From [Phialemoniopsis] sp. UDSM-2020 (Eukaryota; Ascomycota; Sordariomycetes; Thyridiales; Thyridiaceae): 64,000 bases of DNA. Shown here piece by piece: positions 2,360 to 50,882 of the stretch; position 1 is the first letter of the stretch; each line of letters opens with the position of its first letter. A program made the translations under genes and the position numbers. The notes under the pieces are model-generated. The model worked only from the letters and a program-made list of their open reading frames with translations, did not search any database and was not told where the DNA came from. The stretch lies in the NCBI GenBank assembly GCA_018873225.1, contig JAEILZ010000006.1, positions 62,001 to 126,000 on the forward strand, given 5' to 3'.

Positions 2360-4800
2360 TACAGTACTCCATCTCAGTCGAGATCCATCTCTTTGGCCAC
2401 CCCGAACCTTGGGACTTTCGGCAAGGTCAAGGCACTCGATGCACCCCAGCTCATCCGTCTACTCCTCAACTTGCAGTACGCCTCAAGTGGGTGACAATTT
2501 AGTCGACAGTTCTCCTTCTCGATGTACTTCAACTCTTAACTCACCATTTAGGCCCCTCCCATTACCTACCAACATTCTTATCTGATATTCATTTTCTCTA
2601 GATCTTCGTCAACCTTTGTCATTGCAATCATGTCGGGTTGGGAAGTTCACAGTAACGCGAGCGGCTAGGTTGGGTCGCGGGTGACTCCGCCCAGCCTGCC
2701 ACCGCTGAGGCCTCGACATTCGATGCTGCATGCCTTTGCAGTGGCGGTCCCTGACCAGACCGCTTCCACCGAGCAGACGGCATCCTCCGCCAAGGAGGAC
2801 AGGGTGAGCAGAAGGCTGTTGGCTAGGTCCCAGCAGTCCCCTATGACTACACCAAGTATGGCAAGGCTCCTTCGATCCCTGACCTGACTGCTGACTCGCT
2901 GTAGCTGCTCCTAATCAGTCCATGGAACGGGTGACTCCGCCCAGCCTGCCACCGCTGAGGCCTCGACATTCGACACTGCATGCCCTTGCAGTGGCGGTCC
3001 CTGACCAGACCGCTTCCGCCGAGCAGGCGGCATCCTCCGCCCAGCCTTCCACCGCTGAGGCCTCGACGTTCGACACCGCATGCCCTTGCAGCAGCGATCC
3101 CCGACCAGACAGCATCCTCCACCAATGAGGACCAGGAGACGAAGGCGTTGGCTAGGTTCCAGCAGTCCCTTATGACGACACCCAGTATGATGAGGCCCCT
3201 CAGACCCGGCTGCTGGCATTGACGCTGCGGTTGCGGTCATTCCAGCGGCCAGCAACGATCCTTGACCAGACTACTTCGGCCGAGCAGAGGACCAGGGTGA
3301 AGAGAAGGCTGTTGGCTAGGCTCCAGCGGCCCCTACGACTGCACCCAGTGTCGGGGCCCCAAACGCAGACCAGGCTGCTGCCCTCGACATCACAGCGGCC
3401 AGCCAGGTGCCACCAGTCCCTACGACTACACTCAGTGTGGCGAGGCCCCAAGGCCTGGCACGGCTGCTGCCCCCGACGTTGCGGCCACCACAGCGGGCAT
3501 CACAGCGGAAGGCGACGGTGCCTGATCAGACTGCTTCCGCCGAGCAGACTGCATCCTCCACCAACGAGGACCAGGGTGAGAAGAAGGCTGTTGGCTACGT
3601 CCCAGCAGTTCTTTACGACCACAACCAGCATGGTGAGGCCCCTCGCATCTGTGACCAGACTGCTGCCCTCACAGCAGCTGTTCCTCATCAGGCAGGTGAC
3701 TCTGCCCTCCCTGCCACCGCCGAGGGCTCGACACTCAACACTGCTACCATCGCTCCGTTTCTCGACTAGCCGTACCCCTCTACGCTCCGGTAATACTGCC
3801 GCCTACCTCACTACTTTGCCGGACGGGTCGATACTTAGGCAAGGCGACACGCCCCGGCCCAACCACTGGGGGGCCACATTGCCATCCTCTACGCCCCACA
3901 AGTAGGGCAACGTTGGCCCTGAGTATCCTGAGCTGGAGATCCAGCTCTTTGGCCAGCCTGAGAATAGGGAGTTATCTGGATCTTCCCAAGTACGTCCCTT
4001 CGTCCTTAAAGCTCACCTTCCTTGCTAACCTTTCTAGGATCGCTTCCATGGCGCTTCGGCGCGGGCGACATTTGCTGCCCTTGCAGCGGCGGTCCCTAAC
4101 CCGACCGCTTCCGCCGAGCAGAAGACCAGAGTGAGGAGAAGGCTGTTAGCCAATAGGCTCTAGCAGTCCCGTATGACTACACTCAATATGGATAGGTCCA
4201 TTTGGGCAGACCTCGCTGCCGCCCTCGTCATTGCGGCCGTCGCGCCGGCTAGCGGTGGTCTCTGACCAGCCTGCTTCCGCCGAGCAGACAGCAAGCTTCC
4301 CCACCAACGATGACCAGGGTGAGACGAAGGCTGTTGGCTAGGTCCCAGCAGTCCCGTATGATTACACTCAATATGGCGATGCCCCGCAAGCCGAGTCCGG
4401 CAAGGAGAGCTGGGAGGGTAATGTTGCAGTCTACAAGTGGGACGGCGAGCAGGACGACATTGGCCCTGGGTATCCTGAGCTGAAGATCTAGCTCTTTGGC
4501 CAGCCTGAGAATAGGGAGTAGTCTGGAATCGACCTTCCCAAGTATGTCTATATATCTCTAGAGTTTAGATTGGTTACTAAGTCTTATAGTCTCGCTTCCA
4601 TTGAACTTTAGCAGGAGGTCCCTACTCGAGTTAAGCCTGTTGTCGATTTTGACCAGGCTGGTCTACATCCTGGGATACATTGCAATGTGGAGCTTGATGG
4701 TTTCCAAGTGCCGGCACCCATTCAAATGTGTTGTCTGCCTACCATCAATGATAGCTACGATGTCATTGGTATCGCTCAGACTGGTAAGTACCAATGCCGT
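2360..4800 (+). pseudogene. DEAD-box RNA helicase pseudogene with amplified N-terminal repeat
   Basis: The 3' part (about 4609-4792) reads in one frame as the start of a DEAD-box helicase core: TRVKPVVDFDQAGLHP, then NVELDGFQVPAPIQ (Q motif), then DVIGIAQTG (start of motif I), ending at a plausible donor GTAAGT. Upstream are at least six diverged copies of a unit reading VPDQTASAEQTASS, EDQGE.KAVG, VPAVPYDYTQYGEAP, at about 2740, 3000, 3255, 3520, 4090 and 4270. Exon pieces ending in ELEIQLFGQPENRE occur at about 3915 and 4455, with a weaker copy at 2364. Frames are broken by many stops and shifts. The introns after the LFGQPENRE exons (about 3988-4037 and 4541-4590) are kept, so the amplification was at DNA level. 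Helicase motifs after I are absent, so the gene is dead. Confidence 0.7.
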
Positions 4801-4905: not shown

Positions 4906-5890
4906 AAAGGATAATCACGCCGTATATTGATTAGAAGGGAACTTTGGCATCATAGTGACGCACAAATCCGAGACTATTGTTGAATGTTTACGACAGCCTT
5001 GCAGTGTACGTGACGCCACATCTCGTCCGAGACTAGGAGGTACTGATCGCCTACAATCCGAAATGCTTTGATTTGGTACGGCGATACTTTTGGGTCCCGC
5101 CCACCTCTAAACCTTGACCCTCTATCATACGAACGGCACCATCATCAGGAAGTTGAAACATCGTTTCGTCGAATCTTCCGTAGCCAGACTCAGAGTAAAA
5201 GACAACGGCCACCGAGAACTCCCTCCCATGCTGTCGGAGTGACCTTGGCGTGATCGAGAACGTGTCGAGGGATCATGTCTTCTATTTCCGCGGTGTACTA
5301 CGCAGGATAGCTCCAACGGCAAGGAGGAAGTAATTAGCTGACGGTCAAGGGATAGCAAAAGAAGGCATACCCAGGAATACCGGCCACTGGCACATATTCG
5401 CCGATTGAACGGAATGATGGCCGGCGATCTTGCAGATGTCCAAGGTGCTATCGGAAAGCGGGTTCGGGGCCACTGCGAGGGTTTCTGGGGCTGGCGAGGT
5501 GACAAAGGAGCCGTACGAGGCTGCGGGTGCTCCCAGCGTGCCAGGCTGCATAAACCTCCTGTTTGCTGTGCCGACGGAGGCCCGCAAAAACTCGACAGCA
5601 TCCATCACCAAGGCCAAGTCTGACAGATATATCGACGCTGGTACCACCTGGTTGATGAGCTGCTATTGACGACACGGGGCATGGAATAGTATAATGGAAA
5701 GAGTGTCTGCGTGAGATGGCCGGTGAAAGATCCGGCGGCCATCTACATACACCACCGAACGCCTCAATTGCGACTAGTCATGTTCTCTGGCTGTGCGTGG
5801 AAAGATCACCCATTCTGCCGTGCTTGGCCATTTTCGGTATGATACCGAAGCTGGTCTGGAGGTCCATTGGGAGGACGGCGGAGCTGGAGA
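4906..5890. other. No gene recognised
   Basis: Overlapping frames exist on both strands around 5345-5675, but none has a recognisable domain, intron signals or a credible start. Possibly decayed coding sequence. Confidence 0.4.
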
Positions 5891-6627
5891 GGTGAAGCTT
5901 GTTGGACTCGTCCTTGCCACGAGATGACTCTTATGCGACTCTAACGACGTTTCCAGTGCATGCCTCCAGTACTGCCACGCTCATCGTCCGAATTCAAGCC
6001 AGTAACAGGCCACCAACACTTCCCCTTACCAGCATGAGACTGCGTGGCCAGCTTCCTGGACGGTTGTGTCCCGTTCACAGCGACCTCTGCTATCGCTGCC
6101 GTCGCTGCCGTCGCTGCCGTCAATGCCGTCGCTGCCGTCGATGCCGTCGCTGCCGTCGATGTCTAGGGGTCGAATCGGTTAGCCCAACATGGCTGAGTCG
6201 ATCATCGGTGGTCTGCTTGGTAACTGCGTCATCAACGGCTGCAAGGTGGATATCGAGGAGGACATCGCAACTTACTGAAGCCGCTCTTGCTGTTGAACAC
6301 GAACCGACAGCGGCGGTAGCGATGGTACGACCGGGCTCGCTACATTGGAGACTGTTGAACTCGAGGCTTTCGGCGTCAAGAAGATCATGGAGAATCGTGA
6401 GAAGTCAAAGTCCCAGGGATGTGACTGTGCTCGTGGCTACGACAGCCACGACATTTCGCCAGCCAGACGCCACAGAAATCGTAGTAGAAGTGCAATCGAC
6501 TCGGCATGGCGCAGTCGTGTCGAGTTTGGCATTGGTAGAGACTCTGCTAATGACGATTGAGTGTGACACCGTTGCTGGCGTCGCCGGTTCCGTTGGCGTC
6601 GCTGGCAAGGAGTTGACTCCAATATGA
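5890..6627 (+). other. Coding-like, frame-broken sequence of unknown origin
   Basis: Short stretches look like real protein in different plus-strand frames: GAGEVKLVGLVLAT near 5880, MAESIIGGLLGNCVINGCKV near 6190, and VELEAFGVKKIMENREK near 6350. They are separated by stops and a GC-rich trinucleotide-type repeat. I do not recognise the family. Best read as a decayed gene. Confidence 0.3.
6094..6161. repeat. Minisatellite, CGCTGCCGT-type unit
   Basis: About seven tandem 9-bp units of CGCTGCCGT with a few substitutions (CAATGCCGT, CGATGCCGT). In one frame it encodes alternating Ala/Val. Confidence 0.85.
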
Positions 6628-6629
6628 CT

Positions 6630-8290
6630 GAACGGGTATACTCGGACGTTGCATCGTCATTATTTCCGTCATCGTCGTCTTAATTAGAGGTGGCAGGAGT
6701 GGCGACGTCGTTTCCATGGTCTTGTTCGTGAGCTCGGTGTCAGATCACTCGATGGCGGGACATTGCTGGTTTTGCGAGGTAGTCTTGGGCACGAGACTCG
6801 CTACCTGGGGTGCGTGTGTGTCCATCTGGTAGGCGCTTTTAGCTACTAAGCACAATTGGACTTCCCAATGACGAAGACGTTGAGATGAGCAAGTAATGAG
6901 GAGGATAGTTGTTGGCCAAGACGCGAGGCATCACTTGGGCGGTGGTTTCAAGCCCCGACAAGGCGCTGGGGAGGGGCGTCAATGCCATGCAATGCGGCTC
7001 GATTTAGTCGCTCCACAGGCCCCACACTCCATATGCAACGCAATGGTAGCTCCAAGCAAGGCTTCACACCAACTTCAATTGGTTCCTACTTTAAGGGGCC
7101 ATGCCCCCACAACACTTGGCCCTCTTGCCACGAGGGCCTTCGATAAACATATTAGCTCTCGGACAGGCACTCGATCATCAAATACAGAACCTACACGTTG
7201 TTTCCCCACTGAGGTAGTAGCACCATTGGCTTGATGCCCCTTTTACTACGGCGCGTGGCGAATGGATCTACACACGATTTTGCCCCGTTTGCATTAGTGC
7301 GGTACCTGTCTGCGGATTCACTGAAGTGTCTCTCAGCCTTAAATGGTGGGTCCCACTAGGCCTGTTGAACGGTTCCACTTCCAACAACTAAGTGCTTATG
7401 CAGGGCGCGCGCGCGCTGACAACCGATCGAATTGGTAACAGCCAAAAGATCATTTGTCAAGCCATCGTCTCCGTCGAAGTCCCGCGCTCCAGTCCATCCG
7501 ACCCCAGGCTGGCTCGTTGATCTTATCAAGCGACCTGCAATCCTCGCCCTCCGCCGTGTCCATCACACGGTGTTCGGCGACGCAGAGACGATATGTTGCG
7601 CGCACCGGGAGGATGAGCTCAACAAGCTACTCTCTGGCACCGGTAAATGATACTATTCCAGTTCCTGTCTCTAGTTCTGTCTTTGCTGACACATACGGCG
7701 AAACCGTCCAGAAGCGCTGCGCCTCAATTCGACTTGATCGACACCATGCCACCTGCTCATACGATTGTTCTCGTATACCCTCCCGAATTCATAGACCTCT
7801 TGGTGAAGATTTTCATGTACTTGAGCCGAAATTTGTGGTGGGGGAGTGCTTGATTCGTCAGTTGGCTGCGGATCTTCAACGAGACTCGGAGACCGAAACG
7901 TTTCCGTATCGTCCGCAGATTGATGCGTCCGTCTGAGCCGAGCCGGTCTTAGCCTTCGATAACACTCGAAATAGGCGGTACCATCTCTGGCAGGCTGACC
8001 GACTAGATCGCCTGGACGAAGCACTGGATCTGGCAGTCTACTCAAGTTGGAACGAGAGCCAGGCCCAGTCACATGAGGTAAATGGGCTTATGCGATTTCA
8101 ATGTAGTAGAGACTGCCCCGTACAGCATACATAAAAACCCGTATTCGCTGAGGCTACCCACTGTTCATTGACGGCCGGAGGTTGCTTGACATTCATGGCA
8201 AGCTGGCAAATGGTTCAGGCACTGGCCAATATGCCCAAGCTGCGCAAAACCTAGAATGATAGTACTAAAAGCTAGCTCGATAGTTCAACA
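6630..8290. other. No supported gene; coding-like patches near 7430-7940
   Basis: Plus-strand frames at 7432-7650 and 7454-7936 contain protein-like runs (GWLVDLIKRPAILALRRV; EPKFVVGECLIRQLAADLQ) but in different frames with no clear splice sites. Part of this is the diverged repeat described separately at 7501-7560. The GCGCGCGCGC run at 7405-7415 is a simple repeat. Confidence 0.4.
7501..7560 (+). repeat. Diverged repeat, copy 1 (encodes LVDLIKRPAILAL)
   Basis: Copy of a dispersed repeat also at 9284-9330 and 10286-10340, both on the opposite strand. The shared translation is a short block ending in IKRPAIL or IERPAIL followed by similar residues. Confidence 0.55.
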
Positions 8291-8359
8291 GGCGCAATGG
8301 TCAAGTGGTACGACACCGCTCTATATGGAGCGGAGACACGGGTTCGACCCGTTTGCGCC
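8291..8359 (+). tRNA. tRNA-like sequence, probably a pseudo-tRNA
   Basis: The seven-base ends GGCGCAA and TTGCGCC pair perfectly. The box A-like run TGGTCAAGTGG and box B-like run GGTTCGACCC are both present at tRNA spacing. The D arm (GTC/GAC) and an anticodon-type hairpin (CCGCT/AGCGG) form. However, the anticodon loop would be eight bases (or six with an extra pair), and the T-loop is two bases short if the stem ACGGG/CCCGT is used. No confident anticodon can be assigned. It may be a decayed tRNA or the head of a tRNA-derived SINE. Confidence 0.4.
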
Positions 8360-9283
8360 CTCGAGGCTCTAGGCTCCGTGATTAATTTCGTGGGCCTACA
8401 GTCTCGTTTTGCCTTTTTGATGGGTCCTGGACTCTTCACAGTCTCGCCAACTTTTGTCGGCAACTCACCTTTCTTTTTGGCCATGGCGAGGTATCAATGA
8501 AATATAGGTCAGGGTATTTGATGAGTTAATGCTGCAAACGTCTCATTTCTGTATGGTATTCCAAAGGAGGCAGTAAGTCGACGGTTTTGTTGAACCAACG
8601 TATCAAGGCACGGACCTCTTGGAGGTAAGAAGCTGTTACTTACCACACTCTGTTTGGAATAGAACTGGACGTTCCCGGACACGTTTTCCCGTTCAGAACA
8701 TGGTCACAAAGTCTGTTTAGAAAAGGCCCTGGCCTGGATGTTCTCTTCGTGACAGCCGCCCGTCTGAGAACGAACCATTCTGGACGCGCCCCTCGACGGC
8801 GTGCCCACTCTACCCCACCAGAGAAAAGTCTCCGCTCTTCTGCCGGGGTAAGGTAAGCCTTCGAGCGTCGGAGCCGCACTGAGTGGAGCAGCTGATCATC
8901 CATGTTTCAAAACAGAGGCACACTTTTGCTCGGCGTGCATGTACAGCACATGTCAACATGAATCGTCAAAATAAATCGTCACGATAGGTACACATACGGG
9001 TAGTGGGACAGTTTGAGAAGCATGCAGTCATGGACAAACGAAATCTGGTTAACTAGACTAGACTGAACGGGTCGGACGTGTAGCAAAGTTGATGGTAACG
9101 GGGCAAACTTCTTCGAATTGATTGAAGTGCGGTACCTACGGGAAACTAAAACGGCCACACGGAATCGGACGTGGGTTTCGGCGAGGCGAGTCGTCTTCAG
9201 AGATCATCTTGTTGAACCTTTGGTCCCAGTCAATGCGCGGCAATGTCGTCTGCTAGCATGTTGTGTAATACCGTAAACAGCCG
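8360..9283. other. No gene recognised
   Basis: A minus-strand 87-codon frame (8640-8903) has no recognisable domain. Nothing else is supported. Confidence 0.45.
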
Positions 9284-28920: not shown

Positions 28921-31155
28921 TCACAGGTTCTCGTTGGTAAGATCCTCGGCCAGATTCAAAATCTCTGTCGGCGACAATGCAAATCCCCCTTGCGTATCAA
29001 GTAGGTCCCAGGTCACGAACTGCGACAGAGACGCATCGAGGCTTTCCTGGTCGGTGTCTGTGCTCTCCAGCTGCTGTAAGGCCTCGGCTTCCAGGGCAAC
29101 CTCATGCTGGTCATCAGCCGTTCCTCGTCCGGTATGAGCGCTCATTACTCGCTCAAGTCGCTGCAACTCTCTTTTTCTCAACTTTGCAGCTGGACTTCCC
29201 TTGAGGATCATCTGGTCGAGGATCTCGTGGGCTGTTGGGAGCCAAGTCCAGTCTGGCAAGAACCCCGGTGACACGGTCTCAATGACGTAGAGCAGGAACG
29301 CGGATGAAAAGGCGGTCTCCATCTGGAAAGGAAGGAATGAATCTGGAGCGGTAGCACTGACGTCAGCATATCCTGAATTCGGAACAGCAAGAAGTCGCGG
29401 CCCCCTACCGAGCAGGTTCGTATCGCTCAACGCCTTGAGTGTCTTGAGAATGTTCAGAGCGGATGATGTGCAAGACTTCAATAGGGAAGTGATTGGACCC
29501 TCGGAACTCAACCTGGCGGGTCTGTCCTCACCAACCTGGCTCTGCAGGATGCACATGACCAAGGGCCGAGTTGTCAATACCACGCACTGTCAAGCCTTAG
29601 TACCTGTACACGCAGCGATGATGTGAAGCATTACTTACGTGGTGATACGACAATATTAACCTAGTCGCAATTTTCGAAGTGCGAATGTCGGACGTGTGGA
29701 AAGAGCTGTCCAAGAATGCGCTTAAGTCTCCAGCAACGGCGGCGATGTTACGGAGCACCGCTTGCGTGTCGCGGAGCAGATCGAATTCCGAGTTACTGTC
29801 GGCCTTATACACCCCTAAATCTAACTGTCAGCACAAGGAAATCCCCATAATCTCCTGTCTGTACTCATACAACATGGCCGAGAGAGCACTCACCCGAAAG
29901 AATGGATGCGGTCAACCGCCCGAGTCGGAGCTGCAATGTCAACGCCCGGGAAAACACAGAATGCGGCTCAATCTCGCACGGCAATTTCGTAGTGATGTCC
30001 TCATCCCTAATGGAACTAGGGGCGCCGACGAGGGTGCCGAACTCACGGTCGAGGATGTAGCTCGTCCAAAAGATGGTGTTGCACCTTCGCGCATGCTCGA
30101 CATCGACGTGCTTGCTTGTCATGTCTCGGTGCCAACCCTCAATGATGCTGATGCGCAACGCTTGGCCGACCTAGATAAGATTGTCAGTCTGCAAGCTCAT
30201 ATCGGCAATGTTGTCGTTACGTACCAGTTGAAAAGACATGAGCCTTAGATCCACGGCCTGGAGGTATACGCCCGCCAGACAAAACGCCTCGACAGCACTG
30301 GGCGAGTCCCGCGTGATCGGCACCATGCATGGCAACAGAGATAAAGCCCTAGAGGCAAAGCCAAGACCCGGAACTGAGCCAGATCCTTCGGCCGAGTTGA
30401 AAGCTTTACCAAAGGCGATGACGAGCAGGAATTGCGCGTACCAATACCGAGCTCGGAGTGCCACCTCCGCAGGCGACTTGTAGAACCTCTCCATCTCCTC
30501 GTGGAACGACTTGTGGTTGATGATGCCGCACAGAGATCCGAGGTGATACTGAACAGTTGATACTAGGAGGCGAGCATAGTCATAAGACGGCAAGCCGTCG
30601 GTCTGGGGTGGGTCATTCAGTCCGATCGGAGTCCATGCAATATTCAACGTCTCCAGATCCCAGGGGTGGACCGGCGGCTCGAATGTCGGCATCTGACTGC
30701 CTATCAGAGCGATCACTCTCCTGCAGAATGCCCATGATGAGGTTGGTCCCATATACCCTTGCAAGTGTGAGTCTACAGGGCCGATTCAGGTTGATAAGAC
30801 AACGAAGGTCGGTCTTACAGTATTTCCCGTGATCATCCGGCGCAAAAGTCTCACCACTGTCAACCAGTGGATTTCGACGGAACTCCGGGACGATAGCTTC
30901 CGTTGAGAAGTCAACTCCCGGAGGCTTCTCTACGGGCGCATCGAGGTCTGTGTCACCAGAGAGAGGTGCTGCAGGCTGCGGGTCCCGTCCCTGATGCGAG
31001 TCTGCAGCACCAAAGGAGCAAAGCTTCCTCCTCTTTTGACACCTTGTGCAAGGGAATGTCCCAGAGCAGCGGAGCTTCGAAGCACGACACCGTAAACAGC
31101 TAGGGCGACTTGAGCTTAGTACGAACGATCCGAACCGAAACATCGAATGGAGCAT
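28921..31155 (-). CDS. Zn(II)2Cys6 transcription factor with Fungal_trans domain
   Basis: Five exons: 31155-30819, 30772-30225, 30170-29894, 29814-29639, 29586-28921 (667 residues). The binuclear cluster is CLRCRASKLRC-SGTFP-CTRCQKRRKLC with spacing 2-6-5-2-6. A linker follows, then YSHLQGYMGPTSSWAFCRRV and the middle homology region (YWYAQFLLVIAFGKAF; HARRCNTIFWTSYILDREF). The second exon join (GKY/SHLQGY) and the GT-AG borders all keep frame. The start could be at 31155 or 31143, or at an upstream in-frame ATG near 31176. Nuclear regulator; the proline-racemase-like gene and MFS gene downstream on the same strand are obvious candidate targets. Confidence 0.88.
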
Positions 31156-39574: not shown

Positions 39575-40977
39575 TCAGCCTGAAGGATGGTCACTCGCTG
39601 CTACATTACACTGGTGCATGACTCTTGGGCCGTATGACTTCGGGAACTCCGTCTGGATGTCCGATTGTTAGGGAATTTCCAGAAGCAATGAAGGCGAGAA
39701 GACTTACGATACTGTGCCACAACGCACGGTTATACCAGAGTATCACATCTTGCTCCTCGTGACGGTGCGCATAGATGTTCTCCGGTTCCAGTGCAGGTCG
39801 GATCAGCCTAGACGTGGTGAGTACAGTGTAAAGCTGCAAGCCTGGCTCAAATGAGTTGCTTACTTGTTCATGAATGCGCGCACTTCCTTGAGGTCATCAA
39901 CCACCATTTCTTGCCCGTCTGGGCTGTCCTTGAGGTACAATTTAAAGGCAGCTTGGCCATGGACTTGTAGCGACTTCTCTCCGGTTGTGGGGTTCGTCCA
40001 GACCATGGGATAAATGCAAACCTTGTCTTTGTCCCACGGCGGGAGCTGATCCAAGGGCTTCTCCAGGCCTTCTGTCTCCAGGAGATGACCCAGCCGCGTA
40101 CTGTGCGCCGTCGACATCCAGACAAAAGCATGCGGCGCATACTCGATCCGGCTGTGCATGACAAGCTTCCTGGTCTCCTCATCTAAAAGCTCTAGGGCCC
40201 GAGAGCCAGCGACCATAGCTGTCGCTCCGGGAGCAATCTTCATCTCGGTGCCGGTGCCGTCATCCCACCTGACCGTGACGTCCGGACCCTTCGGTGTACG
40301 CACTGCAAGGAGACATCCGACGCGCGGAGGAGGGATGTTGTAGAGCGAGCCGTCAAAGTGCCATTGGTAGAACCGACTAGCGCCCTGCTCGCGTTCTTCT
40401 GGAGAGATGTGGGGTGGCAGATGGAATTCTTCATGGTCAATGCCCTGGACCTCAAAGCCCGGTGGGAAGCCATAGTGTTCGTCGGGCAATGGTCCGCGGC
40501 CGAGGATATGCACTTGCGGCTGCACGGGGATCGCTGGCCTTTTTGGAATGCCGTAAATCTTGAGTCCCTTGTGCGATGTCAGGAATGGGTCGGCGCCGTG
40601 TGCGAAACCGCCAGTGGTCTCTTCAGGGTCGAAACTAAATCTGTTAGCCGAATGCTTGAGACTCGAGGGGTCACTGTAGCTTACCTAGCTGTAAGGCGAT
40701 ACTGCTGCTGAGGACTGAGCATACGCGGCTGCTCCTTGAATACCAGCATCTTATGTCTGTGCAAAGCATCGGAGATGAAATCGAAATCGGCATCGGTAAA
40801 GTTGTTCAAGTCAATGCCGTACACTGACGCACCAAAGTCCACTTTGCTCTCCGGCCCGTGGTCCATGGGGACCACCCGTCCAGTTGTCTGCTCGGCATGA
40901 GGAAGGTCAAAGACAGCCTTCTCAGAGACGAGATGGACGTCTGTTGTCTCTGCCGTGATTACTGATGTGACAACCAT
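39575..40977 (-). CDS. 2-oxoglutarate/Fe(II) dioxygenase, TauD family, XanA-like
   Basis: Exons 40977-40685, 40634-39864, 39807-39708, 39652-39575 (413 residues). The metal ligands are His190 and Asp192 (YQWHFDGSLYN) and a distal His386 (NRALWHSI); the 2-oxoglutarate Arg is in YGPRVMHQCN. Blocks such as VTVRWDDGTGTEM, IEYAPHAFVWMS and YPMVWTNPTTGEKSLQVHG resemble the layout of fungal xanthine dioxygenase (XanA), which hydroxylates xanthine to urate, rather than bacterial taurine dioxygenase. No signal peptide. Its paralogue is at 47365-48674. It is divergent from the alpha/beta hydrolase over a 432-bp promoter holding two identical palindromes. The substrate is unproven. Confidence 0.88.
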
Positions 40978-41204: not shown

Positions 41205-41218
41205 GCCTCGGCCGAGGC
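41205..41218. promoter_or_regulatory. Palindrome GCCTCGGCCGAGGC
   Basis: A perfect 14-bp palindrome made of TCGG/CCGA half-sites with no spacer, the kind of inverted CGG triplets bound by Zn2Cys6 dimers. It is 228 bp from the dioxygenase start. Confidence 0.65.
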
Positions 41219-41278
41219 TTATCGTCGAACTTCTACTGATCGAGATTAGGCTCGGGGACGAAACATCTCCAACCCAGG

Positions 41279-41292
41279 GCCTCGGCCGAGGC
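41279..41292. promoter_or_regulatory. Palindrome GCCTCGGCCGAGGC
   Basis: Identical to the site at 41205, 74 bp away, and 118 bp before the alpha/beta-hydrolase start. Confidence 0.65.
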
Positions 41293-41409
41293 TCGCTGAA
41301 TGCTAGCCAGGAGCAACAAAACAATGGAAAGCTGAGAATATGAGCCCGTGAACCATTCGAAGTTCTCAAATTTCTACCCGGACGACGTACATCTCACAAA
41401 TTACACACC

Positions 41410-42331
41410 ATGACGGTACCACAGCTGACATCGCATGTTTTCCTCGCTCCGACGGGCACAGCAGTACATTATTTGCAAACGGGGAATTCCAATGGGCCTC
41501 TGCTGATATGTCTGCATGGTCTCGGTGGCTCGACGGAGACATTTGTGCCACTCTTGCCATACCTACCAAAGTCTTACAACATCACTCTTGTTGACTTCCA
41601 AGGATTCGGCCAATCACCACTGTCAGCCGAAGGACCTTTGTCTGTCGCGGGCCATGTCGCCGACTTACACCATCTCATCGCATCTCTGCAAGCAACTGCT
41701 CCTGGCGCGAAGGGAGCGGAAAATGTATGACTCCGCACCACGGCTTTAGGCGCGGCTGGTTGAGTAAGTACTGACCCTTCGCTAGATTGTCATTATCGGA
41801 CACTCGCTCGGTGCCATCGTCGCCCTGCACTACGCCGCGGAACACAGCGACTCCCTCAACGGCCTCGCCATGCTCAGCGCCGGACGCTGCGCCGCACAAA
41901 TCCCGATCGTGCGCCAACGAATGTCGGACCTGGCCATGAATACTCGCAAACAAGGCATTGCATATGCTGCGGATCTTGCAGCCACGACCAATTTCCCATC
42001 GGACGAGCAGCGAATGATCCCTTCCAAGACGAGACAAGCTGTGCGGGATGCAGTGGCGGCTTCTGATCCGGAGGGATATGCGCGGACTTGCGAATTGATG
42101 GTGGACCCGAACCACACGGACCCGGACTATTCAAAGATCACTTGCCCTGTGATATTTGTGTCAGGAGACATGGACGGCATCAGCCCGCCGGCAAAGGCAG
42201 AGGAGTTAGATAAGCTAGTGGCCGGAGAAAGCTCGGTGTTCATCGTCAAGAGTGGCCATCAAGTGATCTTGGAAGATCCAGAGGCTACAGGTGCGGCTGT
42301 GAAAGATCTTTTTACCAAGCTTGGCATATAA
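41410..42331 (+). CDS. Alpha/beta hydrolase (enol-lactone-hydrolase-like)
   Basis: Exons 41410-41724 and 41786-42331 (286 residues). The oxyanion HGLGGS comes early; the nucleophile Ser112 is in GHSLGA, the acid in SGDMDGISP, and the His in KSGHQVILE. The overall build resembles 3-oxoadipate enol-lactone hydrolase (PcaD) and related ring-fragment hydrolases, with a short cap. No signal peptide, so cytosolic. As the divergent partner of an XanA-like dioxygenase, it may open or hydrolyse a ring product formed there; this is inference from context. Its stop is 33 bp from that of the convergent Zn2Cys6 gene. Confidence 0.9.
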
Positions 42332-42364
42332 ATGTTATTAGATCGATTCAAGGTATTGTTGCTG

Positions 42365-44654
42365 TTATGATACAGAGAAGTCGTGATTAGCCAAGTACAG
42401 CAAGCTCTCAAAACCCGTCGAGCCGTCCATCCCTAGTGTAGAGAAGAAAGGATCATATGTCATGTCCCGAAGTCCATCTTGTGGTCCGATGTTGAAAGTT
42501 TCAAGGTTCTGTTGGTCGCAAATCGTAGATACGGGATTCTGGGTTGAGATAGCTGCACCTGGCGCCTGCGCCGCCGATACTGCCCTGGTCGCTGATAGCT
42601 GGGGTCCATCGCCACAGTAAGACTTGACAAAGTTGGTGACGTCGAACTGACGCTGTCTTTTCTGGCTTCTCCTACTTCCCTCTGGCATGGGGTCTGTATC
42701 ATCCGCCCCACGCTTTCTCCAGTGGCTCGCCGAATCCACTGCACCCGGGAGCTCTTTCAACAATGCTGACAAGAGCTTGACTCCGCGCGAGGCAATCATG
42801 CTGTTTCGACAGCCTTTCAGTATTTTCACAGTACCCTCAACCAGCTGCCTGTGGTCGGAATAATCACTATCGGAAGGATCACGATGTAGCAGATCGAGCA
42901 GAAGAATGATCGATGCCGCCACGGCAAATGCTTGATGGATCCAAAGGATAGGTCCATCCTCCTTCACTACCAGCTTGTACTCTTTGATGATCGTCTTTGA
43001 CGCCGCAAGGCATGTGGATCTGGTAAACGCAAAGGCCGGGTTCTTGAAGCTCTCCGAGAGGAACGACCGGTGAATCATGATGATCTTGTGTGCAGAGGAA
43101 ATTGCCAGCGATCGCCTCGCCCACGGTATGTATGCCGGCCACGTTGGATCGAGCGGCACATGGCCGAGGAATGCCGGCCGTTCTTTCGTAGCCAATGCCC
43201 GAAGCCGCTTGTCCCAGAAGAGTACTTGCTCGTACCTCGTAAAGACCGTGTTGCAAGACATCAAGCCGTCTTGAAGCTGTGGCATGATGTACGCCACGCG
43301 ATTGAGAAACCGGCAGTAGCTTGTAATGGTAGGGACGCTATCGGGAAGAGATAACAGGTCTTCGTCGTGACAGTTGATGGGAGGGTCCGACTGGCAGTAG
43401 ATGGGGTTGACAAGATAAGTCTCTGAGAAGGGAAGACTGAACCAATCTTGGCTGCATAGCTGGGACCACACTCTCTTTCCCGTCTCCTTCTCTAGGGTAC
43501 TGCCGCGAGAGTCTTCGTTGAGTCGGTGAAGCCCTAGACTTTGCGCGATGCGCACTGCTGCAGCCAGATGGATTGACTGCATGTTTGAGTACCCGAGCAG
43601 GTGGGCCGATATTGTGAGAGTTGCTATAGCTTGCACCGAAAGTATTGACTGGTTGGCAGTGTACTCGGCGCGATTGAGACAGGTGATGACGGCTCGAGCC
43701 CAGCGCCTCGACAATGTCTCGATCTCTTGATCCCGGAACCCCCAAGCATGTGCCTTCTCCACTGGCGCACAAGTGATGGTACCAGCCAGTATGGAGAACA
43801 GGAGTGCAACCCATTGCAAGTCTACGCCGACATGCTCGATTGAGCCCCGGAACCTCGTATAAAAGTCGTGAAGCTGCTTCCTGAACGTCGGTGAGTAGTA
43901 GCTACCGTGATACCACAGCAAGCTTTCGTCATGATAGTCTAAAAGTTGCCAGACGAGCCGCTTGGTCGGAAGCAACATCTGAAGCGTGGCGAGCGGGCAT
44001 GGGTCATTGAGACTGTCGGCGAAGTGATCTTGCAAATGCGCATCCCCGATATCATCAGTCACTCCTGCTCCCTTTGCTAACGCTTCGGGAGACGCAACGG
44101 AGTGAAAGTCGGGGTTCTTCCGTCTGCCCCAGGCCAGGAACTCGAGAATCGACGCCGCATCGTTGACCACGGCATCATCGGGATTATTATCGGGATTATT
44201 AGTCGACTCGTCTCCTGCATCCGTCTCGGTGACTTCAAACCGAGTCATAGAGTCTTCTGTCCTCGAATCGAGCAAAGGATCAACTGGGTATGCGGCGTGG
44301 GTTCGTGTTCTAGATGGTGGTACTATAGAAGGCGAAAGGGCGCGGAAGTCGTGAAGCTCGGCCTCAAGCTGCACCACTCGCGCTCTCAAAGCATCAACAT
44401 CATGACGATGAGTTTCAGGCGAGATCGTGACATCCCGGACAGAAGTGGCCTGTAATCCATGAGCTATCGGCGAATCTGCGCCTTGGTAACATATGTCCTG
44501 TTCACCTCTTCGAGACGCGTCAGTCAGTACTCACACTTTCGCAATATGGTGGGGCTTACCTGCGGATGCAGTTGGTACAGGGCACCGTTTTTGAGCACTT
44601 CACCTTCCTTCGAGTACAAGCCGAACAGGCGAGCCGGCTCCGATGAGTTGACAT
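42365..44654 (-). CDS. Zn(II)2Cys6 transcription factor, likely regulator of the dioxygenase locus
   Basis: Exons 44654-44560 and 44507-42365 (745 residues). The short first exon carries the cluster CSACTRRKVKC-SKTVP-CTNC, completed by IRRGEQDIC across the intron. A coiled-coil linker follows (DALRARVVQLEAELHDFRA), then a Fungal_trans region (YSNMQSIHLAAAVRIAQSLGLHRL; KRVWSQLCSQDWFSL). The C-terminal activation-type tail is rich in Ser, Gln and aromatic residues. A palindrome CTCGGCCGAG lies only 36 bp before its start codon, suggesting autoregulation. It is divergent from the NCS1 permease gene. Without the first exon the DNA-binding domain would be missed. Confidence 0.88.
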
Positions 44655-44689
44655 GGCCAGTTTACTCGACACAGTGGGCTTTAAACTTG

Positions 44690-44699
44690 CTCGGCCGAG
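44690..44699. promoter_or_regulatory. Palindrome CTCGGCCGAG
   Basis: Same core as the sites at 41205, 41279, 48942 and 48985. It is 36 bp from the regulator's ATG and 599 bp from the permease ATG. Confidence 0.6.
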
Positions 44700-44755
44700 G
44701 ATGGAAGCACAAAAAGGGACAATTCAACCTGCTGTCCGGGCAGTTGGAAATTGAG

Positions 44756-44765
44756 GTCGGCCGAC
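44756..44765. promoter_or_regulatory. Palindrome GTCGGCCGAC (variant)
   Basis: Shares the TCGGCCGA core. It forms a pair with 44690, 66 bp away, as in the other two promoters. Confidence 0.5.
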
Positions 44766-45297
44766 TGGCCTTATTATTTACATGCCCACTTGCCCAATTC
44801 TCCATTTCGTCTCCTAGTCTCAATTCGCTGGGGCTTTAGTGTAGCGTATCGGGCATGGTGAGAGCCACTAAACGACATGTCTTCGTCGAATCCTCCTATC
44901 ATATTGTCCGCAGCTATCGCGTCTCCAACCCCGGACTGATAAGCGTCAACCCTCCGGAGTTGTGTCAGATAAGCAGTAAAGCCACAAACCTACAGCACCG
45001 AGTGGATTTGCAATCGTGTCAAGGCCCCGGCTGAAGTGAGGAGGCGATAAGCCACCAGCCTGTGATACCCTGGAATGCAGTGCAACCCCAGACCGTCATG
45101 CTCATCACATATCTACATAACCCGGCGTCAAAAGAACACGGGCCCATTGACATGTCTCCCGCTATGGAAGTGGCAAAGATCCCTGGACCCTGTAGACGCA
45201 GTTTGACCGAAGCCAAAGTGCCTGAGTGAGGGTGTCTTCCCATCCTGAACCTCTTTGAAACTCGAAACATTTGTCGTGCTTACCAGACTCTTCAGCC

Positions 45298-47129
45298 ATG
45301 GATACTCGCGGACTGCGGCAGCGGGGGACGCAAATCAAGGACAAGGTGCATCAACGCCTTACACAGCCCAGTAGCTGGCTGCTGCCCAAGCAGTCGAGCA
45401 GTGTAGCCCCGCCATACGTTTGGGCCAATGCAGGTGAGTTGAGTAGACGACAAGATACATTTTGGAGACAGTGACTAACTGTGTGATAGATCAGGATCCG
45501 GTCCCGGAAGACAAGTGGACATGGACAAGCTGGACCTTCATCACCTACTGGTACTCTGACTTGGTCACCATCTCGACATGGACGGCAGCTAGCTCCATCA
45601 TGACCACCGGACTGACGGCGACGGATGCCATTCTGATCACCTTGGTGGCTGCCATATGCAACGCAATACCAACTGTCTTGAACGGAGCAATTGGCTCAGA
45701 TCTGCACATCCCGTTTCCCATCGCAGTCCGTGCTAGCTACGGTTACTGGCTCAGCTACTTTGTTGTGATCTGCCGCGGTATTCTTGCCCTTTTCTGGTTC
45801 GGTGTTCAGACTGCTGGTGGGGGAACATGTGTCAAGCAGGTAGGTATTTATCTCCCATGATTCATGCTCAATGCTAACTATCTGGCTCACCAGATGCTTA
45901 TTGCTATATGGCCAAGCTTCGCCCATCTCCCAAATCACCTGCCTGCTTCAGCCGGAACAACGAGTCAAGGACTCATATCGTATGCCATATACTGGGTCCT
46001 GCAGTTCCCGCTCCTCCTCATTCCGACCCACAAGCTGCAATACATGTTCTGGGTGAAGACGGTCCTGGTCACTCCCATGGCATTGGCCATGGTGATATGG
46101 ATCACGGTCAAAGCCGGGGGAAACGGATCGTTCTTTTATGCTCCGGCTACAGTCCACGGCTCCAAACGGGCTTGGCTTTGGTTAGCAAATCTTACAAGTA
46201 TCACGGGGGGCTACAGCACCCTGGCTTGCAACATCCCCGACTTCAGTCGTTTCTCTCGTACGCGGGGTGCGCAGCTTTGGCAACTACCCGTCATCCCATT
46301 CTTCAAAGTTCTTGTCAGTACCTTTGGCATTGTAGCTGCGTCCGCCTCTCAGGTCGTCTACGGCAAGACGTACTGGAGTCCGCTCGATATCACGGCTCAG
46401 TGGCATGACACGTCTGGTGGCCGTGCCGCGGCCTTCTTCTGCGCGGCGATCTGGCTACTCGCCCAGATCTGTGTCAACATTAGCAGCAACAGCATCTCGT
46501 TTGCCAACGACATCACCACGTTGATGCCGAAATACTTCAACATCCGCCGCGGTGTCATCTTTGCCTCACTGATCGGCGGATGGGCTCTCTGTCCGTGGAT
46601 CATCCTTGCCTCAGCAAAGGCCTTTCTCAATTTCATGTCCGCTTACGCGATCTTCATGGCGCCGATTGCCGCTACAATGTTTGTGGACTATTGGATCATC
46701 AAGAAGCGCAAGTATGACGTGCCGGCACTCTACGATCCCCGTGGCATCTACCGTTATCAGTATGGTGTCAACTGGCGCGCTCTTGTCGTCTTGGTCATTA
46801 CCATTGTTCCGCTGCTACCCGCATTGGCCAAGGCGGTCACGCCCAACAATGTTGATATTGACCAAGGTCTGCAAAATCTGTTCACGTTCAACTGGCTTTA
46901 CGGTTTCTTTCTTTCCTCTCTTTTTTATTGGGTCCTCAACTACTTCTTCCCGGACGAGAAAACCTTAATCAGTCATGTCATACATGGTTACGCTATTACT
47001 CCTGGTATCGAAGGAGATAGCGAGAGCCAGACTACTGATCCCACTCGGAAAGGATCAGGGCAGTTCCACGAGAAGGACGGTCCGGGAGTGCAATCAGCCG
47101 TGGTGACTGGAGGTTCGACTATTGTATAG
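45298..47129 (+). CDS. NCS1-family nucleobase/allantoin-type permease
   Basis: Exons 45298-45433, 45490-45839, 45894-47129 (573 residues). The cytosolic N-terminus precedes TM1 with WTWTSWTFITYWYSD; NAIPTVLNGAIGSDLHIPFP and RASYGYWLSYFVV mark TM2-3 of the nucleobase:cation symporter-1 family. ISSNSISFANDITTLMPKYF and IRRGVIFASLIGGWAL mark TM8-9. Fungal members (Fur/Fcy types, Dal4, Fui1) import uracil, purines, cytosine, allantoin, uridine, nicotinamide or thiamine-related compounds at the plasma membrane. Its place between the two XanA-like dioxygenases, with a shared palindromic promoter motif, suggests it imports the substrate of this locus. Confidence 0.92.
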
Positions 47130-47364
47130 CTAGCATGGCGTTTAGGTATACATTGGAACGCAAACAGGGACACCTACCTTGACAAGATTCATCAATTCAA
47201 CGTATATCAGAAATTTCAATGTCATGAAAACAGCTATACTTTTATCCAAGTGAGATAGATGATTTGTGCTAACAAGATGAAGTTTGGGTGGTCACTCAGG
47301 CCTCAAAACGTCGGAACATGAATTAAGCTAGGCTACAAATAACAACCCCCTTGCAATTTCATTA

Positions 47365-48674
47365 CTAGGCTGCAGAAGAAATCGGAACTGGCCCGACAGG
47401 TCCGGTGCTAGCCCCGATGTTTGCCTGATGCATCGTCCGAGGCCCAAGGGAGTCCGGGTAGTCCACAGCAGTGTGGAACATCTGATAGTTTGCCCACATG
47501 ACAATGTCGCCCTCGTCGAGAGCTGGGATCATAATGTACTCGGGCTTCAGGATGCGTGATTGGATCTGGTGCAGAAATTCCCGTATCTCGACAACGTCGT
47601 CGACGACTCGAGGCTCTTCATCGGGTGACGACCGGAGGAAGAGCTTGCGTGCACAAATTCCATGCACCATGAAAGCCTTCTCCTCTGTGACTGGGTTGAC
47701 CCACACCATCGGATACTTCTTGACGTTCTTTGGATCCCAGTCACTGATGTCCTCGATCTTGCGCTCCTTGCCCTGAGAACAGAGGCCAAGGCCAGTGGTG
47801 TTGCCCTTGCAATCGGTGATCCATTGGTATGGGTGGGGAGCGTATTCCACCCACGAATGACCCGCCATGTCCTTCTCTTCATCGCTCATCATGTCATACA
47901 TCTGCACACAGCTGAAGAAGGCTGTCAAGCCCGGCTCGGTGTCCATGGTAGTGCCTGTACCGTCATCCCAGTGGATGGTGAGGGGAGAGGATCCGGAATG
48001 CTTTGGCCTCTTGATGCACCTCAATGTAGTGAACCAAGCCGGATCCCTTTCGTATAGCGGCGCGTCAATGTGCCACCGCTGGAAACGTGTGTGCCCCGCG
48101 TTGAACTGGTCAAGAGGCAGTTCAATGGCGTGCCAGTCGTGAGATAGGGCATGTTTGATAGTAGTGTCCTTCAGTCCGTAATGATCTGGGCCTTGGAACC
48201 CCTTGCCGATGAGTCGCACATTCTCTGCTCCCGGGATCGCGTAGACATCTCGGCTTTTCTGGTAGCCAGTCAGAAACATTGTAAATATCCTCCCGATGTG
48301 AAAAATAACGTACGGACAACACACCACCCTTCTTGTTGAAATCTTTGATGTTGCCATGTGAATGCACCTGAGGTGCATCAGGGTCGAATCTGGTCACGAG
48401 TTCCCACTGTTTGATTGGCACCAAGTCCTGCTGGCCCTTGACTACGACAACCTTGTGTTCCCAGATGGCGTCTCGGAGTGCTGCAACATCCGCGTCTGAG
48501 GCCAAATTGTTAGTAATAACACAAGTAAATGGAGCTTTTCCCTCTTGGTTTACCTGATATGTCATTCAGGTTTAGACCAGTGACGATGGCTCCAAAATCG
48601 TGCTTCTCCTTGGGGCTCTTGTCCATTAGAGTGAGCTCAAAGCTCGGCCCTGTAAACAGCTTGCTTGGTGACAT
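47365..48674 (-). CDS. 2-oxoglutarate/Fe(II) dioxygenase, TauD family, XanA-like (second copy)
   Basis: Exons 48674-48554, 48495-48314, 48258-47365 (398 residues). The ligands are His164 and Asp166 (RWHIDAPLYE) and His363 (MFHTAVDYPD); Arg is in GPRTMHQANIGAS. Shared blocks LTIHWDDGTGTTM, VEYAPHPYQWI, YPMVWVNPVTEEKAFMVHG and VVEIREFLHQI tie it to the paralogue at 39575-40977 and to fungal xanthine-dioxygenase-like proteins. The two differ in intron positions and broadly in sequence, so the duplication is old; different substrates or sequential steps are plausible. The upstream region has two CTCGGCCGAG sites. It converges on the permease gene. Confidence 0.9.
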
Positions 48675-48941
48675 GGTAAAGTAGACACAATTTTGAGGAT
48701 GTATCACGACTGTTAATGACGACTCGGTAATGCAATACTGCCCAAATGATTGTGTGATACATCGAACTTAGTCGAGTGAGCCCTGGCCGTATTTGTGGTG
48801 CCTCGTGATCCCCAGACTCCCGTGTGGAAGTGCGGGGAGCAATTGGGGACAGCGTCTCTCGGGTTTGGGACAATGGCTTATCAAGACTAAGTCTCAAAAC
48901 TATCTGGTAGATGTAGTATTAGAGAGCATTGGCCGTCGAGC

Positions 48942-48951
48942 CTCGGCCGAG
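48942..48951. promoter_or_regulatory. Palindrome CTCGGCCGAG
   Basis: 268 bp upstream of the second dioxygenase start. Confidence 0.6.
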
Positions 48952-48984
48952 CTCCACTTTCGCTGTCCTGACAAGATGGACGAC

Positions 48985-48994
48985 CTCGGCCGAG
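48985..48994. promoter_or_regulatory. Palindrome CTCGGCCGAG
   Basis: 43 bp beyond the 48942 site. Both share the longer context CCTCGGCCGAGCTCCA. Confidence 0.6.
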
Positions 48995-49512: not shown

Positions 49513-50882
49513 TTAGGCAAGTCGGTTCTTGACTAGGGTTGTGAGAAGCTAGTAAAAGACTTATCAGCAGAGGCCCATTTCAACTTAAGATGAGAAATGG
49601 GGTTTGACATACCTCAAAGGTAAACTCAGCCGCAGCCACTCCCGTGATTTCCGCGCTGTCCATACCCGGAAGTACCTCGACGACATCGACGCCCACGATG
49701 TCCAGTCCGACCAAGGCGTCAATTATGATCTGGATCACCTCACGCGGCGTCCAACCACCGGAAGCGGGGCCCGCAGTGCCAGGAGCGTAAGCTGGGTCCA
49801 GGACATCCACATCAAGCGACACGTAGACAGGCTTGTCACGTGGCACGACGGACCGAATGCCATCAATCACAGCGCGCACGCCTCCCTCACGGAGCATTGC
49901 CGACGCAGGGATGATGGAGAAGCCGAGCTTTGAGTCCAGCTCGACGTCGGCAGCGGAGTCGAGGGTGCTGCGGATGCCAGCGTGGACCGACGAATCCTTG
50001 GCGAGGAGACCCTCCATGCCAGCCCAGTAGTATGGAGTGCCGTCGGCAACAGCGGCTTGGCGGCTAGGGGACCCGTTGGAGCCAGCAAAGACTTTGGGAG
50101 ACCAGGTGTCGATGTGGGCATCGATGTGGATGGCCGACATGGGCCCGTGGACGGCGTGCAGGGCGCGGAGGATGGGCAGGGAGATGCTGTGGTCGCCGCC
50201 GAGGGCGACGATTTGCGGGTGCTTCTTGCCGGTCTGTCACATGTCAGCTATGAAGTAAGGGACTAGCCGTCGATATCTGGGAGACTGTTACTGACGATCT
50301 TGGAAGTGATGCCGCTGGCGTCGTTCTTCACCTCGCGGTGCAGCAGGCGTGAATACCACTCTTCCATCTGAGCAAAGGCCAGAGCATTGTCAAACGGAGA
50401 GATGGGGAAGTCTCCGCAGTCGACGATGGAGATGTTTTGGATGAAGGGGTTGATGGACTGCCTGAAGTTGTAATGGCCGCTGTCGCGAAGAACAAAGCGT
50501 GTTAGCTGTGATTGAATTACAAGGATGTTAAGAGTGGCAACACAACATACGCAAGAGACAGAGCCCTCGATCCTTGCCGAATCGCATTGGGTCCAAACCG
50601 TGTGCCGGTTCGGTAAGAGGTGGCGGTGTCAAAGGGGAATCCGACTAGTAAGATATCATCCACCGGCCCTTCGGTGGTCAGGCACTGGGAAGTAGGAAGC
50701 TGGGCGAAGCTGGTGACTCCTGCAAAGGCATATTTGGCTGTTGGCTCAAGATCAAATTCCTCCTTGTCCTCGTGTGCCTTGGAAACGAAGGGGTGCTGGT
50801 CAATCAGCGAGGACTTGGACAGTGCCGGGATCGCCACCGCGCCTCCCAAGAAGGTGCCCGCGAGTAGTAAAAGACGGTGCAT
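49513..50882 (-). CDS. Secreted ureohydrolase (agmatinase/arginase family)
   Basis: Exons 50882-50551, 50479-50296, 50233-49613, 49548-49513 (390 residues). The signal peptide MHRLLLLAGTFLGGAVAIP predicts secretion or a vacuolar route. The dimanganese motifs are complete: GGDHSISLP, DAHIDTW and SLDVDVLDPAYAPG, then VEVLPGMD. The substrate-contact SGGWTPRE fits agmatinase or guanidino-acid ureohydrolases more than arginase. These release urea from guanidino compounds. The 12-codon last exon (LLTTLVKNRLA) continues the usual C-terminal helix. A TATAAA on its strand lies about 80 bp upstream of the ATG. It is divergent from the MATE gene. A link to the neighbouring dioxygenase locus is possible, but the palindromes are absent from its promoter. 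Confidence 0.9.

Follow-up and report, generated by a model that had tools for sequence, protein, structure and literature searches.

A paired zero-spacer palindrome as the candidate element of a Zn2Cys6 regulator in a fungal dioxygenase-permease cluster

Purine catabolism in Aspergillus nidulans is controlled by UaY, a Zn2Cys6 specific regulator with TCGG half-sites whose consensus site is TCGG-N6-CCGA; the system also relies on the nitrogen GATA factor AreA and on purine permeases, and the dioxygenase XanA is under UaY control. The hxn cluster includes a 2-oxoglutarate-type oxygenase and, to our knowledge, no NCS1/TauD set. In the excerpted text of PMC5746545, XanA is a 2-oxoglutarate xanthine dioxygenase of A. 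nidulans, and hxn is a clustered pathway of nicotinate (N-heterocycle) catabolism in that fungus, controlled by AreA and by the specific regulator HxnR, a Cys2/His2 protein. Excerpts of further reports give the Neurospora PDR-1 element as a TCGG inverted repeat with an 11-base spacer and with sites in the regulator's own promoter (PMC5469009), TCGG half-sites for Pho7 (PMC5559640), and CCTCGG as the motif of CTF1, FarA and FarB (PMC5068947, PMC10512302). In this study, we analyzed a 64,000-base stretch of the [Phialemoniopsis] sp. UDSM-2020 genome (C8:62001-126000, hereafter the window), in which five genes, A to E, encode two TauD/TfdA-family dioxygenases, an alpha/beta hydrolase, a Zn2Cys6 transcription factor and an NCS1-family permease, and in which a palindrome occurs in pairs between these genes. 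This palindrome, TCGGCCGA, usually extended to CTCGGCCGAG, is probably the DNA target of a Zn2Cys6 regulator specific to the pathway, most likely the gene C product, acting together with a GATA factor.

Based on the comparison of sites and gene set, the cluster is similar to the UaY/AreA system in having a Zn2Cys6 regulator, TCGG half-sites, sites for a GATA factor, a permease and 2-oxoglutarate dioxygenases. In contrast, the spacer between half-sites is 0 rather than 6 bases, each promoter region contains two palindromes, and the genes are clustered with their regulator. Because TCGG-N6-CCGA has no match in the three regions, the cluster site is not the UaY arrangement; of the UaY likeness drawn in the original prediction, the TCGG half-site is what remains. 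Similar to hxn, the locus appears to combine clustered N-heterocycle catabolism, its own regulator and AreA control, whereas HxnR is a Cys2/His2 protein, gene C encodes a Zn2Cys6 protein, and the hxn enzymes differ. The PDR-1 element likewise combines a TCGG inverted repeat with sites in the regulator's promoter, while its 11-base spacer and its pectin and rhamnose genes set it apart from the cluster. In a literature search judged by titles, none points to a fungal regulator with a CTCGGCCGAG or TCGGCCGA site, and none among the matches listed describes this gene cluster. A paper on recombination hotspots in fission yeast (PMC6827382) contains TCGGCCGA once.

All six palindromes are intergenic, with two in each of three regions, namely between genes A and B, between genes C and D, and upstream of gene E (Table 1). 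The five copies of CTCGGCCGAG and the variant GTCGGCCGAC at 44756-44765 that had been predicted were all recovered, the first two starting one base earlier than predicted (41207 and 41281), and the search agrees that the window has no further exact 10-mer. With gene models spliced from the window sequence, the assignment of these sites to the promoters of all five genes holds. The third region serves gene E alone because the arginase-family gene beyond E turns its 3' end to E. Palindrome 3 starts 36 bases 5' of the gene C ATG at 44654, as predicted, leaving 35 bases between them, and the core of palindrome 4 is at 44757-44764. This core, TCGGCCGA, is common to all six sites and occurs eight times in the window; the two copies outside the cluster read Ser-Ala-Glu within open frames, one of 249 codons (at 3276) and the other of 204 (at 30388). 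Two of the three pairs have 15 and 16 bases in common between their copies (CCTCGGCCGAGCTCCA in the case of palindromes 5 and 6), and the C-D pair shares the 8-base core only. The flanks are not alike across the three regions.

To place these sites against the genome, all 44.18 Mb (11 contigs) were searched, giving 225 copies of CTCGGCCGAG and 1277 of TCGGCCGA. The five copies of CTCGGCCGAG in the window compare with a mean of 0.09 in 100 dinucleotide shuffles, none of which reached five. The predicted expectation of 0.06 per 64 kb was too low, the genome count giving 0.33, and the rarity nevertheless stands, five copies in the window having a P of ~2e-5. In the genome, CTCGGCCGAG is 3.5 times commoner than its reversed control palindrome (65 copies). 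Of the 225 sites, the first 15 were fetched; 11 of these are inside open frames of at least 189 codons, and at eight the longest frame reads Ser-Ala-Glu; a Pfam scan of eight open frames flanking five of the single copies (L002-L005, L015) gave nothing informative. Since most fetched copies are in long open frames, single-copy enrichment was dropped as evidence, which is therefore limited to pairing and placement.

The genome contains eight pairs of TCGGCCGA whose spacer is 10-70 bases long, against 2.25 expected from the 1277 single sites and none for the reversed control. Three of the eight are the three regions of the cluster, for which 0.0004 pairs are expected per such stretch. At spacers of 71-131 bases there are six pairs (reversed control 0; 2.25 expected per bin), and at 132-192 bases there are none (reversed control 1). 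Exact CTCGGCCGAG pairs at about 10-70 bases occur three times in the genome, against 0.07 expected, and two of them are in the cluster; the nearest two of the 41 sites on contig C1 are 1854 bases apart, and the nearest two on C4, among the eight matches listed, are 6822 bases apart. Genome-wide commonness, which the original prediction had proposed as a check, thus differs between single copies, which are fairly common, and close pairs, which are rare. Moreover, every 6-, 7- or 8-mer with at least two copies in each of the three regions comes from within the palindrome. This count used both strands, so that one palindrome yields two copies of its asymmetric words, and TCGGCCGA itself has two true copies per region. 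None of 2000 Markov-1 resamples contains any 8-mer with two copies in all three regions. A regulatory role for the element is nearly certain.

The same three regions contain seven GATAAG sites (AreA/NIT2-type) in 1980 bases, against 0.57 expected from the remaining window (P 2.5e-6); this background, like that of the 15 single-copy loci, takes in coding DNA and makes the contrast look larger than it is. Markov resamples gave an expectation of 0.96, with none of 1000 reaching seven, and GATAAG is the commonest of its 60 letter permutations in these regions (permutation mean 1.3). Upstream of 20 other NCS1 genes (L025-L044), GATAAG occurs 47 times in 32 kb, compared with a permutation mean of 16. 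With composition kept, the excess is about sevenfold at the cluster and about threefold upstream of the NCS1 genes, and because of the latter excess GATAAG behaves as a mark of nitrogen-source genes in this genome. The excess upstream of the NCS1 genes is also a hint of nitrogen control over the genome's NCS1 set.

The protein assignments of the cluster are listed in Table 1. Gene A matched PF02668 at 6.6e-26 in a 423-residue draft model, and its best full-length homologue is 83% identical. This and the other homologue comparisons for genes A, C and E cover the best 120 matches listed for each gene. Some TauD homologues in the A and E listings bear the source-given name xanthine dioxygenase. 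The products of A and E are 35% identical to each other and, by eye, contain HFD/HID, WHS/FHT and GPR motifs matching HxD...H and the C-terminal Arg. The solved-structure neighbors of gene E are weak, and none names a substrate. The Zn cluster of gene C is CSACTRRKVKCSKTVPCTNCIRRGEQDIC. For the Fungal_trans middle homology region, the one match in gene C, PF16846, is below threshold (20.9 against 22.5), and PF04082 or PF16846 is present in some of its listed homologues. Gene D is above the TIGR00800 cut-off. As judged from these predicted proteins, the cluster probably takes up and oxidizes a nitrogen-rich compound.

Table 1. Coordinates of the palindromes, genes and GATAAG sites of the cluster and of related units elsewhere in the genome.
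Feature	Position	Strand	Description
Palindrome 1	41207..41216	no strand	CTCGGCCGAG inside GCCTCGGCCGAGGC; 230 bases to gene A ATG, 194 to gene B ATG
Palindrome 2	41281..41290	no strand	CTCGGCCGAG inside GCCTCGGCCGAGGC; 304 bases to gene A ATG, 120 to gene B ATG
Palindrome 3	44690..44699	no strand	CTCGGCCGAG; 599 bases to gene D ATG
Palindrome 4	44756..44765	no strand	variant GTCGGCCGAC; 102 bases to gene C ATG, 533 to gene D ATG
Palindrome 5	48942..48951	no strand	CTCGGCCGAG; 268 bases upstream of gene E ATG
Palindrome 6	48985..48994	no strand	CTCGGCCGAG; 311 bases upstream of gene E ATG
Gene A	39575..40977	-	TauD/TfdA-family 2-oxoglutarate dioxygenase; 4 exons, 415 aa; PF02668
Gene B	41410..42331	+	alpha/beta hydrolase; 2 exons, 286 aa; PF00561 2.3e-22
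Gene C	42365..44654	-	Zn2Cys6 transcription factor; 2 exons, 745 aa; PF00172 26.7 bits, cut-off 21
Gene D	45298..47129	+	NCS1-family nucleobase/allantoin-type permease; 3 exons, 573 aa; PF02133 3.9e-93
Gene E	47365..48674	-	second TauD/TfdA-family dioxygenase; 3 exons, 398 aa; PF02668 1.3e-25
GATAAG (AreA/NIT2-type)	41218..41223	-	one base from palindrome 1
Three GATAAG between genes C and D	44938, 44968, 45046 (span 44938..45051)	+	
Arginase-family gene beyond E	49580 to about 50882	-	3' end towards gene E
C9 group	L017:4894-4933, 5187-6302, about 6500-8432, 8940 on; L022:2786-3844 (C9:719-728 kb)		
C7 regulator-TauD unit	L045:2960-6783 (C7:3672-3676 kb)		
C8:3792213 pair	L016:4913-4971 (C8:3792212-3792270)		MFS transporter near

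To follow the cluster across ascomycetes, linkage was read from serial locus-tag numbers rather than from positions. The three homologue listings have 19 locus-tag prefixes common to at least two of them, and 18 of these 19 genomes show neighboring tags for at least two of the regulator, A and E. Gene C is within four tag numbers of A and/or E in all 13 comparable genomes, and A is equally close to E in nine of 10. The regulator, A and E occur together in at least four genomes among the matches listed, namely Verticillium (ACHAQA_009558/009560/009562), Neoarthrinium (JX265_012335/012337/012339), Kalmusia (N0V90_010568/010569/010571) and Fusarium sp. DS 682 (IL306_006270/006271/006272). The sole exception, LTR53, has its two matches on contigs of 19,947 and 3,022 bases. 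The genomes with linked genes span Sordariomycetes, Dothideomycetes and Eurotiomycetes, and in Curvularia the regulator and a TauD protein are fused in one gene model (P0041). Among the matches listed, the closest named relatives of gene C are those of Thyridium curvatum (71% identity) and Pleurostoma richardsiae (56%). A related-locus search of viral contigs gave 11 pattern matches and no relatives. On the evidence of these tags, the linkage of regulator, A and E is old, and the conserved set includes a Zn2Cys6 regulator that scores above the PF00172 cut-off. In addition, an alignment of gene C with 26 homologues picked from the 120 listed has R16, K17 and V18 of the Zn cluster unchanged in every row, which suggests that the DNA preference of gene C is probably conserved among its homologues. 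Cysteines 1-5 are invariant in the 27 aligned rows and the sixth is present in at least 90%, the window row being exon 1, without the sixth.

Outside the cluster, five TCGGCCGA pairs remain, of which three (C5, C6 and C8:2244655) were set aside because they are inside longer open frames. The pair at C9:719094 consists of CTCGGCCGAG and CTCGGCCGAA and is 254-284 bases upstream of a gene for a 2-oxoglutarate oxygenase of 352 residues; its best relative among solved structures is thymine dioxygenase (5c3p, E 4e-23). Adjoining it are an NCS1 permease and a further 2-oxoglutarate oxygenase, whose shared promoter contains CTCGACCGAG, and the group continues with a sugar-type transporter and then a nucleoside hydrolase (PF01156, 5e-71). 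The group looks like pyrimidine nucleobase/nucleoside catabolism. Given that the control bins contain six and zero pairs, this pair was rejected as proof of a regulon; it is suggestive by virtue of its gene context alone. Separately, a cutinase-domain gene (L022:4980-5615) is located ~1.1 kb past the nucleoside hydrolase, notable only as CCTCGG is a cutinase-regulator motif. The pair at C8:3792213, with starts 49 bases apart, is the only exact CTCGGCCGAG pair found outside the cluster at that spacing; it is inside a 165-codon open frame judged non-coding by eye.

On C7, a gene C paralogue (39% identity over residues 210-619) directly adjoins a gene E paralogue (40%), and the genome has further, weaker gene C matches. 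As judged from these predicted proteins, this genome has two regulator-dioxygenase units. The C7 locus contains no TCGGCCGA and a single 10-mer copy with one mismatch, CTCGGCCGTG, 267 bases upstream of the TauD ATG. For the one-mismatch copies on C9 (L017:8770) and C7 (L045:5335), which were sought post hoc, ~0.04 are expected each per promoter. The genome has ~24 NCS1 loci, grouped from 56 exon matches. In 1.6 kb upstream of each of 20 of the other 22 loci, CTCGGCCGAG occurs in none, TCGGCCGA in one and a one-mismatch copy in one.

Collectively, the C9 and C7 finds suggest, short of proof, a broader regulon in which 2-oxoglutarate oxygenases act on nucleobase-like compounds. The five-gene regulon of the original prediction is upheld insofar as the pairs are non-random at all five promoters; it may be too small, as oxygenase genes on C9, and perhaps C7, carry the element. 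A more ambitious version, which we consider less likely than not, is that this zero-spacer TCGGCCGA palindrome, in most cases as a pair, is the mark of a regulon that extends over C8, C9 and, weakly, C7 and comprises nucleobase-directed 2-oxoglutarate dioxygenases with their NCS1 permeases. The palindrome would be read by an uncharacterized, widespread ascomycete Zn2Cys6 family together with a GATA factor.

For the cluster itself, we propose that an imported nitrogen-containing, nucleobase-like compound, or its product, would activate the gene C protein, which would then bind the paired palindromes as dimers, alongside an AreA/NIT2-type GATA factor. The paired palindromes would thereby coordinate the NCS1 permease, the two TauD dioxygenases, the alpha/beta hydrolase and the regulator's own gene, and the cluster would be on only with the inducer present and preferred nitrogen absent. 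The element would act in activation rather than repression, and through it the C9 group may belong to the regulon in trans. Palindrome 3 is a special case. It may be located in the 5' leader, at or after the transcription start, and therefore auto-repression or service to the divergent permease is as likely as auto-activation.

Other explanations of the pairs were weighed against gene C as the binder, the chief ones being other Zn2Cys6 proteins, a CCTCGG binder of the FarA/CTF1 type included. A chance or non-regulatory origin, through coding-type Ser-Ala-Glu words, local duplication or a DNA hairpin, could draw on the long open frames around 11 of the 15 fetched copies and on the 15 and 16 bases shared within two pairs. 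However, all six cluster sites are intergenic, three pairs are observed where 0.0004 are expected, and duplication is at odds with flanks that differ between regions and with a C-D pair that shares its 8-base core alone; we regard this origin as highly improbable. A FarA/FarB/CTF1-type fatty-acid regulator would read CCTCGGCCGAGG as two abutting inverted CCTCGG, the motif described for these proteins in the excerpts cited above. At least one CCTCGG is present in five of the six sites, and both halves are present in two. In contrast, the core common to the six sites is TCGGCCGA, GTCGGCCGAC lacks CCTCGG and palindrome 3 has only one. CCTCGG is also common in the window (57 copies), while the pairing, as an inverted abutting repeat, belongs to the palindrome. 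Moreover, the cluster genes are of another, non-lipid catabolic kind, and the locus encodes its own regulator; we consider binding by a fatty-acid regulator unlikely.

Slightly less improbable, and still a minor candidate, is another Zn2Cys6 protein, such as a UaY-like purine regulator or the C7 paralogue, with gene C using other DNA. The TCGG/CCGA half-sites are shared with UaY, the genome encodes the 39% identical paralogue and weaker matches, and TCGG also recurs in the PDR-1 and Pho7 sites, as far as the excerpts of PMC5469009 and PMC5559640 describe them. The UaY arrangement is absent from the three regions, however, and the sites are concentrated at the one locus encoding gene C, its own promoter included, whereas the C7 locus offers only its one-mismatch 10-mer.

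We therefore keep the gene C protein as the most likely binder, with several observations counting against it. The 36-base gap to the regulator's ATG is odd for an activator site, and a zero-spacer CGG/CCG inverted repeat is unusual for a Zn2Cys6 dimer. The C9 pair alone is within chance for 8-mer pairs, its second copy being CTCGGCCGAA, and no gene could be assigned in the stretch around the exact pair at C8:3792213. With relaxed pair criteria, a looser pair of CTCGGCCGAG and TCGACCGAG was also recovered in GC-rich DNA at C10:2142885-2142945.

The element is genuine, ordinary in kind and well delimited, and it may mark a broader oxygenase regulon. Relatives of the cluster occur in three ascomycete classes. 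The palindrome provides a sharp and cheap test of the regulator and a handle on the substrate, for which the candidates on C9 and C7 suggest the oxidation of nucleobases and nucleosides. If gene C binds the zero-spacer CGG/CCG repeat, an unusual geometry would be added to a well-studied family of fungal regulators. Beyond gene E, the N-terminus of the arginase-family protein (49580-50882) resembles a secretion signal by eye, and a secreted ureohydrolase there would be odd.

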